Positions 30,030 to 39,580 of a stretch of 64,000 bases of DNA are shown here, in pieces. Every line of letters starts with the position of its first letter. The stretch's first letter is position 1. The notes below the pieces were generated by a model that saw only the letters and a program-made list of their open reading frames with translations, had not been told where the DNA came from and searched no databases. The position numbers were made by a program, and so were the translations under genes. This DNA is from Christensenellaceae bacterium (GTDB taxonomy: Bacteria > Bacillota > Clostridia > Christensenellales > UBA1750): assembly GCA_031280685.1 (NCBI GenBank), contig JAITGM010000011.1:1-64000 (forward strand), written 5' to 3'.

Positions 30030-30965
30030 ATGACGGCGCGATGCTTAATTGAACCCGGGGATCTATCCACAGATGAGATCCTTCACCTCGTAAGGCTTGC
30101 GGGCAGCATCATCAGGCAACCGGAGCGATTCGCTACACGGTGCACGGGGAAGCTGCTGGCAAGTCTTTTTTTTGAGCCTTCCACGCGCACCAAGTTCTCG
30201 TTCGATGCGGCCATGCTGCGGCTGGGCGGCCAAGTCATCGGCTTTTCGGACCCCGCGACCTCCTCATCCTCCAAGGGCGAAACCCTGGCCGACACCGCAA
30301 GAATGGTCGAAAGCTATGCCGATCTCATCGTGGTGCGCCACCCCCGCGAGGGCGCGCCCAAGCACATCGCCAATTTCGTAAACTGCCCGGTCATCAACGC
30401 GGGGGATGGCGGCCACCAGCATCCCACCCAAACACTGACCGATCTATTGACCATCTCGGCCCACAAGGGCAGGCTGCAGGATCTGACCGTGGGCGTCTGC
30501 GGCGACTTGATGTTTGGCCGCACCATCCACTCCCTCGCCTCTACGCTCGCGCGCTTCCCTGGGATCAAGCTCCTCTTCATCTCGCCCGAGGAGCTTCGCA
30601 TGCCGCAGTATGTCAAGGATGATTTGGCGCAAAAGGGCGTGCCCTTTGAAGAGAGCACCCAGCTCGAGAGCGTCATCGGCCGGCTCGACATCCTTTATAT
30701 GTCGCGCGTGCAGCGCGAGCGCTTCGTGAGCGAGGAAGAATACCTTCGCCTAAAGGATTACTTCATCCTCACCAAAGAAAAGCTGAGCCTGGCCAAAAGC
30801 GACACGATCGTCATGCATCCGCTGCCAAGGGTGAACGAGATCGCGGCCGATGTGGACTCAGACCCCCGCGCGCTGTACTTTGCGCAGGCGCGCTACGGCA
30901 TGTTCATCCGAATGGCGCTGATTCTCTTCCTTCTGGGGCTCGAAAAGGAGGGCGACCTTGCATGA
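30030..30965 (+). CDS. pyrB: Aspartate carbamoyltransferase, catalytic subunit
   Basis: Commits carbamoyl phosphate and aspartate to pyrimidine synthesis. The 311-residue protein has the carbamoyl-phosphate motif FFEPSTRTKFSF, the 80s loop SSSSKGETLADT, HPTQTLTDL and the C-terminal MHPLPRVNEI. AGGAGGG-type site precedes the ATG. First gene of pyrBICFKDE; pyrI overlaps by four bases, so catalytic and regulatory chains are made together, predicting an allosteric holoenzyme of the E. coli type. Confidence 0.97.
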   Translation: MTARCLIEPGDLSTDEILHLVRLAGSIIRQPERFATRCTGKLLASLFFEPSTRTKFSFDAAMLRLGGQVIGFSDPATSSSSKGETLADTARMVESYADLIVVRHPREGAPKHIANFVNCPVINAGDGGHQHPTQTLTDLLTISAHKGRLQDLTVGVCGDLMFGRTIHSLASTLARFPGIKLLFISPEELRMPQYVKDDLAQKGVPFEESTQLESVIGRLDILYMSRVQRERFVSEEEYLRLKDYFILTKEKLSLAKSDTIVMHPLPRVNEIAADVDSDPRALYFAQARYGMFIRMALILFLLGLEKEGDLA

Positions 30966-31384
30966 TCAACGTTTCCAAGCTCAAAAAGGGCATTGTGCTG
31001 GATCATATTGAGGCAGGCCAGGGCTTTAAGGTCTTTCAGCAGCTCGGGCTCGACCGGCTCGATGATGTGATCGTGCTCATGCGCAATGTCGAGAGCACGC
31101 GCATGGGCAAAAAGGACCTGATCAAGATCGAAACCGACCTCACGCTCGACCTGAACGTGCTGGGCCTGCTCAATCCGGGCACCACCGTCACCTACGTCGA
31201 AGATGGCAAGGCGGTGCGCAAGCTCAAGCTCTCGCTGCCCGAACAGGTCGAAGGAATCCTCAGCTGCAAAAATCCCCGCTGCATCTCAAACACAGAAAAG
31301 CTCGGCCCGGTACGCTTCACCCTGGCCAACCGGGAGCGCAAGGAGTACGCCTGCGAGTACTGCGAGGCGAGGGCGCGGCTGTGA
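30962..31384 (+). CDS. pyrI: Aspartate carbamoyltransferase, regulatory subunit
   Basis: Binds nucleotide effectors and a structural zinc, and links catalytic trimers. The 140-residue protein has the allosteric part with GIVLDHIEAGQGFKVFQQLG and the zinc domain with four Cys (CKNPRC and CEYC near the C-terminus). Overlaps pyrB by four bases and pyrC by four (GTGA). Confidence 0.96.
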   Translation: MINVSKLKKGIVLDHIEAGQGFKVFQQLGLDRLDDVIVLMRNVESTRMGKKDLIKIETDLTLDLNVLGLLNPGTTVTYVEDGKAVRKLKLSLPEQVEGILSCKNPRCISNTEKLGPVRFTLANRERKEYACEYCEARARL

Positions 31385-32526
31385 GGGGCCTTCATATCAA
31401 AAACGCCAGGCTGCTCGACGCGCGCGGCGAGCGCATGGGCGAGCTTTATTTGAGCGATGGAAGGATTGGCCTGAACCCCGCCGCCTTCGAGCAGGAAATC
31501 GATGCGCAGGGCATGGTTTTGATGCCAGCGCTCATCGACCTGCACTGCCACCTGCGCGATCCCGGGCTGACCTACAAGGAGGATCTTCAAAGCGGCATGC
31601 GCGCGGCGCTGAAGGGCGGCTACGGCACGCTCTGCGCCATGGCCAACACCGCGCCGGTGATTTCCACGCCCGCTTTGGTCGAAGCCAACCACGAAAAGGC
31701 CCAAAAGCTGCGGCTTTGCACTTTGATTCAGGCAGCGGCGGCGGGAATGGAGCTCAAGGACGAAACCCCGACAGACTGGGCCGCCCTCTCGAAGGCCACG
31801 AAGCTTTTGAGCAACGACGGCCAAACCATCTTCAGCGATGGGTTCATGAAAAGGCTCCTCGCCGCCTCGGCGGAATATGGCTTCTTGATCTCGACGCACT
31901 GCCAGCCCGAAAGGCGCATCATCGCGCGCGACCTTTCCCTTTTAAAAGAGGCCGGCGGCCGGCTGCACATCGGCCACATCAGCCACCGCGAGAGTTTAGA
32001 GCGAATTCGGGCCGCCAAGGCGGAAGGCCTCGCCTTCAGTTGCGAGGTCACGCCCCACCACATCTTCGGCTTTGGCTGCGACTATCGGGTCAACCCGCCC
32101 CTGCGCGAAAGGGCGGACGTGCAGGCGCTGATTCAGGGCATCAAGGACGGCGTGATCGACTGCCTTTCGACCGACCACGCCCCCCATTCGCCAGGCGACA
32201 AGGAAGCGGGCATGGCCGGCATCTCGAACATCGAATATGCCCTGCAGGTCTTTCTCGAGGTTTTTTATCAAAACGCCATCCCCTTAACGGTTTTAAGCCG
32301 AATGGCTTCGCTGCGCCCGGCCGGGCTTCTGGGGCTGAACAAGGGCCTGATCGAGGAGGGCTACGACGCCGACCTCGTGCTGCTCGACCCCGATTCGCCA
32401 GGCACCATTCGCGCCGGAGAGATGGTTTCCCGCTCGCATAACACGCCCTTTGACGGCAGGGCTGTCAGGGGCCGGATTCTTTGCACCATCGTGGAAGGAG
32501 AGGTTCGCTATGACGCACGCCATTGA
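31381..32526 (+). CDS. pyrC: Dihydroorotase
   Basis: Closes carbamoyl aspartate to dihydroorotate. The 381-residue amidohydrolase has the metal-binding HCHLRDPG, a type I dihydroorotase signature, and later histidines in STHCQPERR and CEVTPHHIFG plus the catalytic Asp in STDHAPHS. The metal-bridging Lys of many type I enzymes is not evident in the sequence I scanned, so the number of metals is open. Start GTG 31381-31383 overlaps the pyrI stop. Confidence 0.95.
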   Translation: MRGLHIKNARLLDARGERMGELYLSDGRIGLNPAAFEQEIDAQGMVLMPALIDLHCHLRDPGLTYKEDLQSGMRAALKGGYGTLCAMANTAPVISTPALVEANHEKAQKLRLCTLIQAAAAGMELKDETPTDWAALSKATKLLSNDGQTIFSDGFMKRLLAASAEYGFLISTHCQPERRIIARDLSLLKEAGGRLHIGHISHRESLERIRAAKAEGLAFSCEVTPHHIFGFGCDYRVNPPLRERADVQALIQGIKDGVIDCLSTDHAPHSPGDKEAGMAGISNIEYALQVFLEVFYQNAIPLTVLSRMASLRPAGLLGLNKGLIEEGYDADLVLLDPDSPGTIRAGEMVSRSHNTPFDGRAVRGRILCTIVEGEVRYDARH

Positions 32527-33370
32527 CCGCCTAAAAACCCGGGCCGATCAAAAGGGCCCGGTCTGCCTGGGGCTGGATACCCAGGCCTCCTTCTTGCCGG
32601 GCTATATCCAAAAAATGGACATGAGCCTGGGCGAGAAGTTCTTCCTCTTTAATCAAGCCATCATCGACGCGACCTCGGACGAGGTGGGCTGCTACAAGGT
32701 TCAAATCGCCTGCTATGAGGCCTTGGGCCTGGACGGCATGGCGGCCTTCGCCAAGACGCTGCAATATGCCAGGGGCAAGGGCGTGCCCGTGATCTCGGAC
32801 GTGAAGCGGGGCGATATTTCTTCGACCGCGGCGCAGTACGCGGCCGGCCATTTTGCGGGCGATTTTCAGACCGACCTCATCACAGTCAACGCCTACATGG
32901 GGCTGGATGCGGTTTCCCCCTACTTCCCCTACATCAGCGAAAAGGGCAAGGCGCTCTTTTTGCTGGTGAAGACCTCAAACCCCGGCAGCGGGGACTTTCA
33001 GGATCAAAAAGTCGGCGGGCAGGCCCTATATGAGCTGGTAGCCCAAACGGTTTCGCGCTGGGGCGAGCCCTTCGTGGGCGAGAGCGGCTATTCTGCCCTC
33101 GGTGCGGTGGTGGGGCTGACCTACCCCAGGGAGTTTGAAACCATCAAGGCGCTGATGCCCAAAACCTTCTTCCTGATCCCTGGCTACGGCGCGCAGGGCG
33201 GCACGGGGAAGGATATTGCCGGGGTCTTCAAGGGCGGCATTTGCGGCGTGGTAAACTCCTCGCGCGGGCTGATCTGCGCCTATCAGGGCAAGACCGAGGG
33301 CGAGGATTTTGCCAAATACGTCCACGATGCGGCGAAGGCCATGCGGGAGGATATTTTGCAATGGCTCTAA
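32510..33370 (+). CDS. pyrF: Orotidine 5'-phosphate decarboxylase, type 2
   Basis: Final step to UMP. The 286-residue length and sequence (CLGLDTQ, GVPVISDVKRGDISST with the catalytic Lys/Asp, VKTSNPGSGDFQ, and PGYGAQGGTG) fit the longer type 2 (mycobacterial-like) family rather than the E. coli type. ATG 32510 follows GGAGAGG and overlaps the pyrC end by 17 bases. Confidence 0.96.
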   Translation: MTHAIDRLKTRADQKGPVCLGLDTQASFLPGYIQKMDMSLGEKFFLFNQAIIDATSDEVGCYKVQIACYEALGLDGMAAFAKTLQYARGKGVPVISDVKRGDISSTAAQYAAGHFAGDFQTDLITVNAYMGLDAVSPYFPYISEKGKALFLLVKTSNPGSGDFQDQKVGGQALYELVAQTVSRWGEPFVGESGYSALGAVVGLTYPREFETIKALMPKTFFLIPGYGAQGGTGKDIAGVFKGGICGVVNSSRGLICAYQGKTEGEDFAKYVHDAAKAMREDILQWL

Positions 33371-34065
33371 TCCTTTCGAATGAGTGCGTGGGCGAAAGGG
33401 TCTTTTTGATGAAGCTCCAAGGCCTGCGCGCCGCGCCGGGCCAGTTCTATATGCTCAGGCCGCAAGAACGGCTTTCGGCGCCGCTGCTGGGCAGGCCCAT
33501 CAGCGTCTTTGACGCGGACGAAGAGGGTCTTTCCTTCCTTTACCACATGGTCGGGCAGGGCACGGCCCTTCTCGCCGCCAAGCGCGCGGGCGAGGAGGTT
33601 CAGGCCATCGGCCCCTTTGGCAACGGCTTTCGCTTCGCCGATCGGGATCTAAGCGTGATCGGCGGCGGCATCGGCATCGCGCCGCTCTATTATCTGCTCA
33701 AGGAGTGGAAGCGCCGCTTTCCGGCGCGCAAAACCGAGGCTTTCTTGGGCTTTTCGCTTGAAAGTTTCATGGTTTCGGCCTTTGAAGACGTTAGCGGGCG
33801 CTGCCAGGTTAACATCGGCGGTTTCGTCACCGAGGACGCTCCCCTTGCGCCCGGGCCCCTCCACGTGGCCTGCGGCCCGCTGCCCATGCTGCGCGCCGCG
33901 CAGAAAAAGGCCGAAGGAAACGGCGCCGAGCTCGATCTTTCCCTCGAGGCGCGCATGGCCTGCGGCGCCGGCGCCTGCCTTGGCTGCAGCTGTGCGACGG
34001 TCGCGGGCAACCGCCGCGTCTGCAAGGACGGGCCTGTCTTTTCGGCCAGGGAGGTGCTGCTGTGA
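33361..34065 (+). CDS. pyrK: Dihydroorotate dehydrogenase electron transfer subunit
   Basis: FAD and [2Fe-2S] subunit that passes electrons from the PyrD flavin to NAD+. The 234-residue protein has the flavin motif GRPISVFD, nucleotide-binding VIGGGIGIAPLYYL, and the cluster cysteines in CGAGACLGCSCAT with a later Cys in RRVCKDGPVF. It overlaps pyrF by ten bases and pyrD by four. The pair defines a class 1B enzyme. Confidence 0.95.
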   Translation: MALILSNECVGERVFLMKLQGLRAAPGQFYMLRPQERLSAPLLGRPISVFDADEEGLSFLYHMVGQGTALLAAKRAGEEVQAIGPFGNGFRFADRDLSVIGGGIGIAPLYYLLKEWKRRFPARKTEAFLGFSLESFMVSAFEDVSGRCQVNIGGFVTEDAPLAPGPLHVACGPLPMLRAAQKKAEGNGAELDLSLEARMACGAGACLGCSCATVAGNRRVCKDGPVFSAREVLL

Positions 34066-34964
34066 ACCCGCTGCAAACCACCCTCTTGGGCGTAAATCTC
34101 AAAAACCCTGTGATCGCGGCCTCGGGCACCTTCGGCTTCGGGGCTGAATACCTCCAGTTTTTCGACCCTTCTATGCTGGGCGGCATCTCGTCAAAGGGGC
34201 TGACCTTAAACGGCAGCCAGGGCAACGAGGGTGTCCGCATCTGGGAAACGCCTTCGGGCATGCTCAACTCCATCGGGCTTGAAAACCCGGGCGTGCGGCG
34301 CTTCATCGCCGAGGAATACCCAAAAATGCGCGCCATTAGCGCCGCCATGCTCGTGAATTTGGGCGGCCATTCCATCGAGGACTATCTCGAGGGCGCGGAG
34401 CTGCTCAACGGCGTGGATTTAGACATTTTGGAGCTGAACATCTCCTGCCCAAACGTCAAATCCGGCGGCATGGCCTTTGGCATGGATGAAGATCTGGCCG
34501 CAGAGGTCGTTTCGCGGGTCAAGTCGCTCAGCCGCCACCCGCTGCTGGTCAAGCTCACGCCCAACGCGCCAAACATCGTTTCGCTGGCCCTCGCCTGCGA
34601 AGATGCCGGGGCCGATGGGCTTTCGCTGGTCAACACCTTCCTAGGCATGGCGATTGACATCGGGCAAAAAAAGGCGGTCTTCCGCAACGTCAACGCCGGC
34701 CTTTCAGGCCCTGCGATCTTGCCCATCGCGCTGTCGATGGTGCATCGGGTGGCCAAGGCGGTCAAAATCCCCGTGGTGGGCCTTGGCGGCATCATGACCT
34801 GGCGGGACGCCCTAAGCTTTTTAATGGCCGGGGCCTGCGCCGTTCAGGTCGGCACGGCGAGCTTTGCGGACCCGCTCGCCATGCCGCAAATCATTCAGGG
34901 ACTGCGTCTCTATTGCCAAAGCGAAGGGCTGAAGAATATCGCCGAGATCGTCGGCGCCGTTTAG
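34062..34964 (+). CDS. pyrD: Dihydroorotate dehydrogenase (NAD type, catalytic subunit)
   Basis: Oxidises dihydroorotate to orotate with FMN. The 300-residue protein has ASGTFGFG, the active-site Cys in LNISCPNVKSGG, VKLTPN, and the FMN phosphate site GLGGIMTW and GTASFADP. The Cys base and the neighbouring pyrK mark class 1B. Start GTG 34062-34064 overlaps pyrK. Confidence 0.97.
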   Translation: MNPLQTTLLGVNLKNPVIAASGTFGFGAEYLQFFDPSMLGGISSKGLTLNGSQGNEGVRIWETPSGMLNSIGLENPGVRRFIAEEYPKMRAISAAMLVNLGGHSIEDYLEGAELLNGVDLDILELNISCPNVKSGGMAFGMDEDLAAEVVSRVKSLSRHPLLVKLTPNAPNIVSLALACEDAGADGLSLVNTFLGMAIDIGQKKAVFRNVNAGLSGPAILPIALSMVHRVAKAVKIPVVGLGGIMTWRDALSFLMAGACAVQVGTASFADPLAMPQIIQGLRLYCQSEGLKNIAEIVGAV

Positions 34965-34991
34965 GCACCAAAAACAAGGAGGGTTTTCATC

Positions 34992-35570
34992 ATGGATCAG
35001 GCAAGGGCAATCGAAATCCTGCGCGAAACCGGGGCGTTCCTCGAGGGGCACTTCCTTTTAAGCTCCGGGCGGCATTCGGGCGGCTACTGCCAGTGCGCCC
35101 AGCTTCTGCGCTTCCCCGACAGGGCGGCGCAGGTTCTGTCTTTGGTGGCCGAGCAAGTCCGCGAACTTGGCGTCACCAAGGTCTGCGGCCCCGCGATGGG
35201 CGGCGTGATCGTTTCATACGAGCTGGGCCGCCAGCTCGGCCTGGAATCCATCTTCACCGAGCGTGTAGATGACGAAATGCAGCTGCGCCGGGGCTTCACG
35301 GTGGACGAAAACGATCGCATCCTCATCGCGGAGGACGTGGTCACCACGGGCAAGTCCACCCTGGAAACCGTGAAGGCGCTCGAAGCCTATGGCGCAAAGG
35401 TCCTTGGCGTGGCCTGCATCGCCGATCGGCGCGCGGAGGGTTTTCCCCTGAAGCTTCCAGTCTACAGCGCGGTTCGCCTCCAAATCGAAAGCTACGCGCC
35501 AGAAAGCTGCCCCCTTTGCCAGGAAGGCCTCCTGCCGCTGGTTAAGCCCGGCAGCCGCAAGCGGTTTTAA
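34992..35570 (+). CDS. pyrE: Orotate phosphoribosyltransferase
   Basis: Joins orotate to PRPP giving OMP. The 192-residue protein has the PRPP motif RILIAEDVVTTGKST and the flexible-loop/substrate parts SSGRHSGGY and FTERVDDEMQLRRGF. AAGGAGGG precedes the ATG. Last pyrimidine gene of the operon; the next gene starts only three bases after its stop. Confidence 0.96.
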   Translation: MDQARAIEILRETGAFLEGHFLLSSGRHSGGYCQCAQLLRFPDRAAQVLSLVAEQVRELGVTKVCGPAMGGVIVSYELGRQLGLESIFTERVDDEMQLRRGFTVDENDRILIAEDVVTTGKSTLETVKALEAYGAKVLGVACIADRRAEGFPLKLPVYSAVRLQIESYAPESCPLCQEGLLPLVKPGSRKRF

Positions 35571-35573
35571 AGG

Positions 35574-37460
35574 ATGCGCCGGAACTTCGGGCCATTTTTC
35601 AGCCTTTTGGCGGCGCTGCTTTGCCTGGCGGCCCTGCTGGGCGCCTGCCGGGCCGCCCAAGGGGTGAAAGAAAGCCCCCTGCCTTCGCCGCCCGCCCAAA
35701 CGCCCGGGCAAACGCCGCCTTTCCATGAAATTCCCCTTCCCCAAGGCCTGCCGGGCGAGCTTTGCGAGGTCGCTGGCGTAGAGGAATTTTTAAGCCTGCG
35801 CGTTTCGGACCAAAGCAGCGCGGTTCGCGTGCGCAAGCTGCCCGGCGGCTGCCCGCTCCTGGTGCTTGAGCGGCATGGCGATTTTGCCCGAGTGCTCACC
35901 GAGGGCGGCGAGCGCGGCTATGTGATGAGCGCCTACCTAAGGCCAAGCTCGCTCCCCTTCACGCTGCCGGCCGCAGAAGCAGGAGCGTACACCGTGGTTT
36001 GCCGCAGCTCGCTCTCGCTGTTCGAAGCGCCGTCCCTGCAGGCCGAGCGCATTGGAAGGATAGCGCCGGGCAGCGGTGTGACGCTCCTTGGTGAGGCCGA
36101 AAACGGCTTCGCGCGCATCCTTTCCCCCGACCTTAACGCGGAGGGTTATGCGCTGCTTAGCTACCTTTCCTTCGGGCGGCTGAACGACCCGGAGCCGCCC
36201 GACGCGTTTTTGAGCCCCAGCCCTTCGCCGGGCGCGAGCGCCGGCTCGAATCCCTCGCGGAGCCCAAGCCCCGCGGTGCCAAGCGCGAGTGCTCAGCCAA
36301 GCCCTTCGCCCGTAAAAACCCAGGGAACAAGCCCAAAACCCGGCGAAGACGGCCGGCCAGAGCTCTTCACCGCATCCTGCAGCCAATACCTGAGCCTGCG
36401 CGAAAGACCGAGCAGCGACGCGCCGAGCCTGTGCCAAATCGCAAACGGCGCAGAAGTAAAGCTGCTGAGCTACACGGGAGCCTTTGCAAAGGTCAGCTAT
36501 CGCGGGGTGGAAGGCTACGTGCTCGCCGGCTATTTAAAGCCGCAGGATCGCTCCGCGTTTAAGTTCACGGCTGTTCAGCCCAAAGAGAACTATTCCTATG
36601 CCCAGATGATGGGCGACATTCAGGCGCTAGAGGAACAATACCCGGGGCGCCTGCGCGCCGGAAGCATCGGCCAAAGCGCGCTGGGCAAAGGAATTCCCCT
36701 GCTGATCTTGGGCGAAGCGAGCGCGAAAACGACGCTGCTCGTCACCGCGGGCATCCACGGGCGCGAGCACATGACGAGCCTGCTGCTCATGGCCCAAATC
36801 GACCGGATGCTGGCCGAAGGCGGCCCGCCAGCCGGCGTTAGCTACCATGTTTTGCCCATGCTCAATCCAGACGGCGTCCAGATCAGCCAAGGGCGCGAAA
36901 TGACCCCTGCGCTGCGGGCGATCTATGAGGCAGACAGGGCCGCGGGCTTTACTTCCCTCGGCGAAAAGGAGTATCTAGCGCGCTGGAAGGCCAATGCGAA
37001 CGGCATCGACCTAAACCGCAACTTCGCGCGGGACTTTGGCAAGGGCGCCAAGCGAAATGGCCCTTCCTCATCGCTCTACCCAGGCGCATCGCCCGAGGAT
37101 CAGCCCGAATCGAGGGCGCTTGGGGAGTATCTGCGCAGCCATAAATTCAAGGCCTCCTTGCATTTTCATGCCTATGGCTCGTGGATCTATGGCCAGTACG
37201 GAAGCGACGAGACGCTCAACCGGCTTTCACTCTCCTTGGCAGAAAGGCTTTCTGCCCTCAGCGGCTACCCGCTCAGCGCCGAGAGCGGCGAGGAGGGCGG
37301 CGGCCTGAAGGACTACCTGCAGGGCGAGCTGAAGCTGCCCAGCGTCACCATAGAGATCGGCACGCGGGCCTGCCCGCTGCCCTTTGATGAGTTTTACACC
37401 ATCTGGCTGCGCAATGAAGGGATTCTGCGCGCTCTGGGCGACTGGGCGGCCAAAAACTAG
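35574..37460 (+). CDS. SH3b-repeat M14 zinc carboxypeptidase lipoprotein
   Basis: A 628-residue exported protein. Lipobox LLGAC near residue 25, a Pro-rich linker, SH3b-like domains at about residues 65-125, 140-200 and 260-325 separated by Pro/Ser-rich linkers, then an M14 peptidase domain (about 335-628) with zinc ligands in GIHGREH (near residue 395) and SLHFHAYG, and the catalytic Glu in TIEIGTRACP. Such proteins cut peptidoglycan cross-peptides (gamma-D-Glu-diaminopimelate type), often in sporulation or wall turnover. The start is three bases after pyrE's stop with AAAGG abutting the ATG, so it is probably translated by coupling at the end of the pyr operon. Confidence 0.88.
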   Translation: MRRNFGPFFSLLAALLCLAALLGACRAAQGVKESPLPSPPAQTPGQTPPFHEIPLPQGLPGELCEVAGVEEFLSLRVSDQSSAVRVRKLPGGCPLLVLERHGDFARVLTEGGERGYVMSAYLRPSSLPFTLPAAEAGAYTVVCRSSLSLFEAPSLQAERIGRIAPGSGVTLLGEAENGFARILSPDLNAEGYALLSYLSFGRLNDPEPPDAFLSPSPSPGASAGSNPSRSPSPAVPSASAQPSPSPVKTQGTSPKPGEDGRPELFTASCSQYLSLRERPSSDAPSLCQIANGAEVKLLSYTGAFAKVSYRGVEGYVLAGYLKPQDRSAFKFTAVQPKENYSYAQMMGDIQALEEQYPGRLRAGSIGQSALGKGIPLLILGEASAKTTLLVTAGIHGREHMTSLLLMAQIDRMLAEGGPPAGVSYHVLPMLNPDGVQISQGREMTPALRAIYEADRAAGFTSLGEKEYLARWKANANGIDLNRNFARDFGKGAKRNGPSSSLYPGASPEDQPESRALGEYLRSHKFKASLHFHAYGSWIYGQYGSDETLNRLSLSLAERLSALSGYPLSAESGEEGGGLKDYLQGELKLPSVTIEIGTRACPLPFDEFYTIWLRNEGILRALGDWAAKN

Positions 37461-37471
37461 GCTTGCCCCTT

Positions 37472-38176
37472 TCAGCCCCTTTGGTAGGCCCTTCTGAGCC
37501 TATCGGTGATCTGCGCCAAAAAGGCCCGGTTTGTGGGCTTCCCCCTCTCGGGCAAGACGGTATAGCCAAAGAATTCTTCCAGGTTCTGCAGCCTGCCATA
37601 GCGCCAGGCGCTTTCTATGGCATAGCGGATATCGCGCTCCACGTTGGGCGCGGCGCCGCCCGATTCCTCGGCCAGGCGCGCGTAAACGTGATCGCGCAGG
37701 TTCTGCAGGCGCCGCCCGTCAAGAACGCAAAGCTCCAGCGCGCGCCGCAAATAGTGCGTTCCGCGCATATGAGGCGCGAAACCGAGGGTTTCGAGGGTGT
37801 TTTCAATCGCTTGCAGCCCCTCGGGCGAGGGGCTGCGCTCTTTTGCGCCTTCCAGTGCGGCGATGGCCTCATCCCAGCCCCTGCAAAAACAAAGACCGCC
37901 CAAGAGCCCACCGGGTTTTGGGAATGGCGCGCTGAGCACGGGCAGCGGCCGCAAAAGCTGGGATCCCTTTTGCAGCAGTTTGGGCAAAAGGGCGATGCCG
38001 TCGGTGCCCCGAAGCAGCGCATCGCACAAAAGGGCGTCGGGCAGGCTGCGCCTCATCAGCGCGAGCGCCCGCCCTCCGTCCACAGCCTCGCCCAGCACCG
38101 CGTTCCCGCTGAGCAGAACCATTTTTTCCACATTCTTTAAGGTCTTTTCGTCCCTGGCGACGATCAGCACATCCAT
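37472..38176 (-). CDS. spo0A: Spo0A-like sporulation regulator with degenerate receiver
   Basis: The C-terminal half (about residues 118-234) is a clear Spo0A DNA-binding domain: LGFAPHMRGTHYLRRAL, the recognition helix region VERDIRYAIESAWRYG and FFGYTVLPERGKPTNRAF. The N-terminal receiver is short and eroded: Asp 52 (LLCDALLRGTDG) aligns with the phosphorylation site, but only one acidic residue remains in the first-loop pair (ARDE), and the conserved Lys is missing (LCFCRGWDE). ATG 38174-38176 follows AGGGG. It sits 72 bases after spoIVB, the universal order in spore formers, so it is the Spo0A orthologue by position. Confidence 0.85.
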   Translation of the reverse strand: MDVLIVARDEKTLKNVEKMVLLSGNAVLGEAVDGGRALALMRRSLPDALLCDALLRGTDGIALLPKLLQKGSQLLRPLPVLSAPFPKPGGLLGGLCFCRGWDEAIAALEGAKERSPSPEGLQAIENTLETLGFAPHMRGTHYLRRALELCVLDGRRLQNLRDHVYARLAEESGGAAPNVERDIRYAIESAWRYGRLQNLEEFFGYTVLPERGKPTNRAFLAQITDRLRRAYQRG

Positions 38177-38248
38177 GCAGCTCAAACCCCTCGCTTCACG
38201 TTCCCTTACCATTTCCATATGGGTTTGCGCGAATCCTTCCGCGAAAAA

Positions 38249-39517
38249 TCACTGCATATCGAGCATCCAGTCTAAAAACAGCCCATAGCCCCGGGTCGGG
38301 TCGTTGACATAGACGTGGGTGACCGCGCCGATGAGGTACCCATCCTGCAAGATGGGGCTGCCGCTCATCCCCTGCACGATGCCGCCAGTCTTTTGCAAGA
38401 GCTCTGGGTCGGTGACCTGAATGACCATCGAGCGCTGCGCGGGCGCCAACTGCGGCGTTACGCGGATGATCTGGCAGTCGAACTCGCGCACGCCGCCCTC
38501 GTCAATGGTCGCCAAGATCGTCGCCTGGCCAGGGTGCACCGAGGACTGCGTGCCCACCGGTAACCCCTGCGGATAGAGCGGGTTTACGAAGGCCCCTTGC
38601 GGACTGCCGTAGACGCCATAGTCGGTGTTCTTGTTAATGGTGCCAATCTTCTGCTGCCCATCCGAAAACACGCCATGCAGCTCGCCAGGGCTGCCCTTTT
38701 CACCCTTTTTCACGTCCACAATCTTCGACGGGTAAACGTCGCCATCCCTGATGGGCAGGATCTGCAGGGTGTCCACATCGGTGATGGCGTGGCCCAGCGC
38801 GCCAAAGCGCTTGGCGCTGGGGTCGAAATAGGTCAAGGTGCCTATACCCGCCGTGGAGTCGCGCACCCAAAGCCCCAGGCGCCGTGCGCCGCTTTCATCC
38901 ACTGCGGGCGAAATGCGCCCTTCGTAGCTTCTGCCGCCGCGCTTATAGTTGATCTTCAGCGTGTTGCTCGTGCTGTTTTTTACGATCGAGAGCAGATCCT
39001 GCATGCTGCGCACCTGCTCGCTGCCAAGTTTTGTGATGGTATCCCCGCTTTGCAGGCCAGCCTCCTTGGCCGGGTTCCTGTGCGTGCCGTCGGGCAGGAA
39101 GACGTCCGCAGAATCGACGACAAACACGCCGTCGGTATACATCGCGATGCCCACCGCGGCGCCGCCCGGCATCACGACCTTCTCGTTTTCCACCTTCACC
39201 GTTACCTGCTTGAGCGGCAGGCCCATCAAGCTGAAGGTCAGGTTCGCGCTGCCCGAGCTTTCGCCCTGAATGCCCAAGCTTTCATCCCCCGAAAGGCTGA
39301 CCACCACGCTTTCCTGCTCCACCCGCAGCTCCATCGGCAGTGCGAAGGAGAAGCTTTGACTCTGCCCCGTCGATATGCGAATATTTTTGGGCAGATTGCG
39401 CAGGCTCTGTACCGATGGCATGAAGTTTAACGCTGTAAGCAGCCCGGCAAGCACGATGCCAAGCACTTTTTTGAAGCTTTTTCTTCGTTTCGCCGCCCTT
39501 TCCCCGCTGTGCTCCAT
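38249..39517 (-). CDS. spoIVB: SpoIVB signalling peptidase
   Basis: Serine peptidase (family S55) made in the forespore that triggers pro-sigma-K processing in the mother cell. The 422-residue protein has an N-terminal membrane anchor (KKVLGIVLAGLLTALNFMP), a PDZ domain (KEAGLQSGDTITKLG), the catalytic His in FGALGHAITDVDT and the catalytic Ser region GIVQGMSGSPIL near residue 385. ATG 39515-39517 follows GGAGAGG by eight bases. spo0A follows. Its presence argues for genuine endospore formation. Confidence 0.95.
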   Translation of the reverse strand: MEHSGERAAKRRKSFKKVLGIVLAGLLTALNFMPSVQSLRNLPKNIRISTGQSQSFSFALPMELRVEQESVVVSLSGDESLGIQGESSGSANLTFSLMGLPLKQVTVKVENEKVVMPGGAAVGIAMYTDGVFVVDSADVFLPDGTHRNPAKEAGLQSGDTITKLGSEQVRSMQDLLSIVKNSTSNTLKINYKRGGRSYEGRISPAVDESGARRLGLWVRDSTAGIGTLTYFDPSAKRFGALGHAITDVDTLQILPIRDGDVYPSKIVDVKKGEKGSPGELHGVFSDGQQKIGTINKNTDYGVYGSPQGAFVNPLYPQGLPVGTQSSVHPGQATILATIDEGGVREFDCQIIRVTPQLAPAQRSMVIQVTDPELLQKTGGIVQGMSGSPILQDGYLIGAVTHVYVNDPTRGYGLFLDWMLDMQ

Positions 39518-39550: not shown

Positions 39551-39580
39551 TATTGTGGATGGAGCGGCGCCCGCGTATTC
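39551..39580 (-). promoter_or_regulatory. Possible sigma-G promoter of spoIVB
   Basis: On the minus strand GAATA (39576-39580) and CACAATA (39551-39557) are 18 bases apart, close to the forespore sigma-G pattern GHATR-17/18-CATNNTA with one mismatch. It lies about 34 bases upstream of the start. The remainder of 39581-39821 has no recognised feature. Confidence 0.4.

Follow-up and report, generated by a model that had tools for sequence, protein, structure and literature searches.

Spo0A is regarded as the one gatekeeper conserved among endospore formers, and metagenome-based predictions of spore formation use its presence as a marker. In atypical or pseudo-receiver response regulators, the receiver fold persists although the phosphorylation residues are missing. 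In C. thermocellum, two Spo0A homologues that share 56% identity have been described, of which the first, Clo1313_1409, is required for sporulation and is closer to B. subtilis Spo0A (PMC4890492); the second, Clo1313_0637 (Cthe_3087), was mutated in evolved strains (PMC3804516). Work cited in PMC3485338 reports that the isolated Spo0A DNA-binding domain binds legitimate targets without phosphate. Additionally, gut phages carry receiver-less Spo0A homologues that are thought to disturb host sporulation (PMC10294663). We found no report of a Spo0A duplication in Christensenellales in the open-access literature.

Here, we analyzed a spo0A gene at 37472..38176 on the reverse strand (234 aa plus stop) of a Christensenellaceae contig, in a stretch of 64,000 nt that is referred to in its entirety as the window. 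An alternative in-frame ATG lies upstream, at 38218, and would extend the protein to 248 aa. As in B. subtilis and Clostridia, the gene sits directly downstream of spoIVB (SpoIVB peptidase S55; 38249..39517, reverse strand), which has its probable start ATG at 39517 and a longest reading frame reaching to 39667, and whose product exceeded the cut-off of the SpoIVB model TIGR02860 with 422 bits. The window gene also resembles those of B. subtilis and Clostridia in domain order, in a complete Spo0A_C domain, and in Asp52. It differs from them in having no acidic pair, Lys, alpha4, 0A box, or long promoter gap, in a changed recognition helix, and in that its genome encodes an intact Spo0A elsewhere. 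The Spo0A_C DNA-binding domain (residues 124-227; 37496..37807, reverse strand) matched the whole Pfam profile PF08769 (104/104 positions, E=2e-26). A preliminary description, made from the letters alone, had called the DNA-binding half recognizable and had placed spoIVB upstream as in spore formers, and both statements were borne out by the profile matches. The receiver (approximately residues 1-112; 37840..38176, reverse strand) reached 25.0 bits against PF00072, below the Pfam cut-off of 30.2, and aligned with profile positions 1-70 of 111 only. Over its full length the protein scored 104.2 bits against the equivalog model TIGR02875 (NCBIfam spore_0_A), under the curated cut-off of 200. The nearest named records came from Christensenellaceae and from uncultured Clostridia MAGs.

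Convergent with the window gene is a forward-strand gene (35574-37460) that, by eye, encodes a lipoprotein-like product with SH3-type repeats and an M14-type carboxypeptidase domain. The adjacent forward-strand region (30030-35570) appeared from its translations, again by eye, to be a compact pyrimidine operon containing pyrB, a pyrI-like gene, pyrC, pyrF, pyrK, pyrD, and pyrE.

Asp52 was all that was left in the window gene of the set that marks a phosphorylatable receiver (acidic pair, Asp, T/S, and Lys). Aligned with intact Spo0A, the end of beta1 read VARD instead of VADD, leaving a single acid (R8-D9), the MP that follows the retained Asp52 was replaced by LR (CDALLRGTDG), and the KPF motif of beta5 had become CRG, with loss of the Lys. 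An AlphaFold model computed from 17 alignment rows (mean pLDDT 86) retained beta1 to beta5 in the predicted order beta1-alpha1-beta2-alpha2-beta3-alpha3-beta4-beta5-alpha5; alpha4 was absent and the stretch surrounding it was the least certain. Thus, the shortened receiver, the single acid, the missing Lys, and the persisting Asp52 that had been reported previously all reappeared in the profile match, alignment, or model, and neither the alignment nor the model placed the acidic pair or the Lys at shifted positions. The orthologue from the congener G001 was 82% identical and had the same architecture, with the remaining acid replaced by Asn, ruling out sequencing error as the source of the eroded receiver. 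Phosphorylation of this receiver by the usual route is hardly conceivable, and a phosphorylation-independent form is the natural reading of the window gene.

A genome-wide search exposed three Spo0A_C genes in the window genome, which is 97% complete. Besides the window gene, contig C47 encoded a 255-aa protein with an intact receiver (DD, D, T, and K) that belonged to class II, the name used here for the spo0A genes unlinked to spoIVB, the linked ones being class I. Contig C28 encoded a third, near-intact protein of 265 aa (L002 1459-2256; L035), in which DS replaced DD and the D and K were kept. Six HisKA kinases were present, five with an adjoining response regulator; the sixth, on contig C8, had no response regulator in the 0.6 kb read upstream and is a candidate orphan kinase. 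Orphan kinases and Spo0B were among the phosphorelay components that the preliminary description had pointed to; this kinase is a candidate for the former, and a search of the genome for Spo0B found none. Other spo genes, also suggested there, were found, namely those for SpoIVA, a SpoIIE-like protein scoring below its curated cut-off, SigE (over cut-off), and SigF/G/K-type sigma factors; the presence of spoIVA, the spoIIE-like gene, sigE, and sigF ruled out loss of sporulation as the cause of receiver erosion. The preliminary description had further proposed an altered or lost phosphorelay input, or a constitutive form. As a statement about the Spo0A in the expected position, phosphorylation independence was supported. 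The part in which the sporulation switch of the organism loses its phosphate input was not, given the intact C47 gene, the C28 copy, and the orphan-like HisKA kinase in the same genome; with both copies at hand, such a loss is needless as an explanation.

We then compared loci from 61 Christensenellales genomes and from 118 genomes of the taxonomic class, tabulating neighbors and key residues, and reconstructed a 49-row tree from the DNA-binding domain, besides a FastTree tree. In the 49-row tree, all unlinked genes, from Christensenellales as well as from four genomes of other orders (G093, G116, G137, and G156), formed a single clade with support of 100/100, while B. subtilis Spo0A, the linked genes, and the window gene were placed outside of it. 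Long branches left the exact position of the window gene within class I unsure. In both trees the C28 copy was a lineage-specific duplicate of class II, and it was found in G001 as well. Identity between class I and class II was 54-58% in G062, G093, G116, G137, and G156, and the helix read SRVERAIRH in the spoIVB-linked gene of other orders and SKVERAIRH in the unlinked gene. Class II was followed on the same strand, at 25-1489 nt, by a SipL-like (SPOCS) gene in 15 Christensenellales genomes among those read, and a SipL-like gene also followed it in G093, G116, and G137 (in the last at 2.7 kb). This arrangement, seen in more than one order (L034, L042, L048, L053, L058, L184, and others), supports one origin of class II.

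Receiver erosion extended well beyond the window. All 18 linked class I loci from other orders had an intact receiver, as against 3/22 of those in Christensenellales (Fisher p=1e-8, a value that ignores genome relatedness and uses control loci that were best-scoring matches and hence biased to canonical ones). None of the seven loci in the family of the window genome was intact, the 3 intact cases being among the 15 loci from elsewhere in the order. In 8/22 Christensenellales linked genes the receiver was lost altogether (<90 residues before the DNA-binding domain). Class II was intact in 33 of 50 cases in Christensenellales and imperfect in some small-genome families, for example by Asp52 to Glu in G019 and G029. 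An eroded linked gene was almost always accompanied by a class II gene in the same genome; G001 (88% complete) had a third-type copy only, besides its eroded linked gene. Going beyond what a single sequence could reveal, the erosion is an order-wide pattern, and the window gene is a paralogue whose place another Spo0A class has probably taken.

Several further Spo0A_C proteins were noted in the order. Candidatus Limiplasma-like MAGs (L121, L129, L134, L135, L138, L140-L142, and L145) encoded another such protein, in which His or other residues replace Asp52 and the C-terminal tail is conserved as N-S-S-E-[MI]-H-H/Q-S/R-P-A-A-P-T; in L134 and L138, spoIVB was absent upstream of this gene and a divergent gene for a long membrane protein was located there. 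Short proteins of ~105-170 aa consisting of Spo0A_C only were common (for example, G025:C6 54808-55593, L083), including one tandem case, and by analogy with those of gut phages some may be phage-derived. One 4.2-Mb genome (G044:C3) had nine Spo0A_C matches.

An order-wide loss of receiver residues raises the question of whether class I consists of redundant, functionless relics heading for loss. Such plain degeneration would fit the repeated and apparently independent shortening of the receiver, the range of lengths among family copies (133 to ~245 aa), and the low HMM scores of the window gene. However, dN/dS of the window gene against G001 was 0.19 overall, 0.14 in the DNA-binding domain, and, despite its erosion, 0.24 in the receiver (0.09 for spoIVB). 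Judging by these ratios, the gene is under purifying selection and retained, not decaying, which argues against plain decay. Moreover, the motif FGYTV..GKPTNRAFLAQ in the DNA-binding domain was nearly invariant across seven family members, and 22 Christensenellales genomes retain class I beside spoIVB. We consider a relic very unlikely. The constraint on the receiver, together with its confidently predicted fold, could be taken to indicate that this domain still senses, via Asp52, a ligand, or a partner, as do the atypical receivers of other response regulators, and Asp52 was indeed kept in six of the seven receiver-bearing family copies, G007 having Glu instead. Yet the acidic pair, T/S, and Lys are gone and alpha4 is absent, and G008 lost its entire receiver at the same locus (133 aa), so that a sensing role also appears unlikely. 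The window gene further differs from atypical response regulators in its Spo0A_C output domain and in being accompanied by an intact sister gene.

The DNA-binding half was conserved in structure. In Foldseek searches it matched 1fc3 and 1lq1 with TM 0.85-0.91 (by target), and its Spo0A_C domain was 37% identical to 1fc3 (TM 0.85). The recognition helix of the window gene was PNVERDIRYAIESAW rather than SRVERAIRHAIEVAW. All seven family class I proteins had S/N/A at position 211, N/D at 215, and Y/F at 218 (B. subtilis numbering), and every class II gene had K, A, and H, respectively, at these positions, which presumably serve DNA recognition as in the 1LQ1 complex. We take the helix changes of the family class I proteins as changed DNA recognition. 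These data bear on the idea that the phosphorylation-blind protein modulates class II, competing with it or forming mixed dimers on 0A boxes and so acting as a brake or timer. The retained DNA-binding domain and the match of the model to DNA-bound Spo0A would allow this, and the phage-borne homologues supply a possible precedent, but the altered helix in 7/7 family copies points to different sites or to weak binding of 0A boxes, and we view such modulation as rather doubtful. The phage proteins share with the window protein a Spo0A DNA-binding domain free of phosphate control. Unlike these proteins, which have no domain besides the DNA-binding one and occur in phages or prophages, the window gene lies in the host chromosome by spoIVB, retains the fold of a receiver, and falls with the class I genes of chromosomes. 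A phage origin was ruled out by its neighbor spoIVB.

The regions upstream of class I were also remodeled. The gap between spoIVB and spo0A had a median of 70 nt in Christensenellales versus 188 nt elsewhere (p=5e-5), and an exact 0A box was in the gap at 4/22 loci versus 13/18 in other orders (p=0.001), both p values again disregarding genome relatedness and using the same best-scoring control loci. Boxes were present in 1/7 family loci and 3/15 in the rest of the order, and the 72-nt gap of the window (38177..38248, reverse strand) had no exact 0A box. Just upstream of spoIVB, 6/7 family genomes had a sigma-G/F-like site, G[AC]ATA-N17/18-CA[TC]HHTA, which is a consensus match only, with a chance of ~1% or less per stretch; in the window it is GAATA-N18-CACAATA (39551..39580, reverse strand). 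Given the shortened promoter region of class I itself and the sigma-G/F-like site before spoIVB, the amount of class I protein would follow that of SpoIVB in the forespore, and a joint spoIVB-spo0A (class I) transcript in that compartment is the simplest reading of these motifs. As to class II, the upstream region of the gene in the window genome yielded no exact 0A box, and the boxes upstream of class II genes generally were scattered, with no fixed place. An exact 0A box was located upstream of spoIIE in G000, G001, G005, and G007, within GC-rich sequence, and may reflect chance or coding. Searches near the sigE and sigF operons showed no clear box.

We favor, at a probability of about two in three, the interpretation that the window gene has been kept as a paralogue that binds DNA independently of phosphorylation and is expressed together with spoIVB, and that class II is the phosphorylatable Spo0A. 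The window gene would represent the ancestral, spoIVB-linked Spo0A of a Christensenellales spore former, which would have been released from the role of master regulator because the genome has another Spo0A, unlinked and with its receiver intact. Since the isolated DNA-binding domain binds without phosphate, loss of phosphorylation in the receiver, or of the whole receiver as in G008, should yield a DNA-binding protein controlled by its amount alone. Like isolated Spo0A DNA-binding domains, the window protein would then bind DNA without phosphorylation, its activity would be set by expression level on the spoIVB transcript made from sigma-F/G in the forespore, and it would act on a changed set of DNA sites. 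Class II would be the Spo0A that, once phosphorylated, starts sporulation.

More tentatively, and at somewhat less than even odds, this would apply to Christensenellales as a whole, such that the master role was handed to class II and the old gene was rebuilt as a phosphorylation-blind forespore regulator with SpoIVB and new sites. Comparison with C. thermocellum constrains this proposal. There too, two classes seem to reside in one genome: Clo1313_1409 is probably class I, and, going by the similar identity figures (56% there, 54-58% between the classes here), Clo1313_0637 would be class II and the pair the same as here, so that the class II of the window genome would be of that kind. In contrast, the first homologue is essential for sporulation in C. 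thermocellum, while class I is the eroded copy in the window genome. Because C. thermocellum needs its probable class I gene to sporulate, the swap must be specific to Christensenellales.

Overall, the remodeling is real and order-wide, in that the Spo0A beside spoIVB has ceased to be a phosphorylation switch, a function that the second class probably has. For the organism studied here, the spo0A found in the expected position is probably not the working switch, the likely one being its sister gene, class II. Across Christensenellales, the Spo0A master regulator may have given way to a sister gene of its own. If true, a developmental master regulator would have been taken over by its own paralogue, class II Spo0A would gain a testable role, and spo0A-based prediction of spore formers should check both the class of the gene and the state of its receiver.
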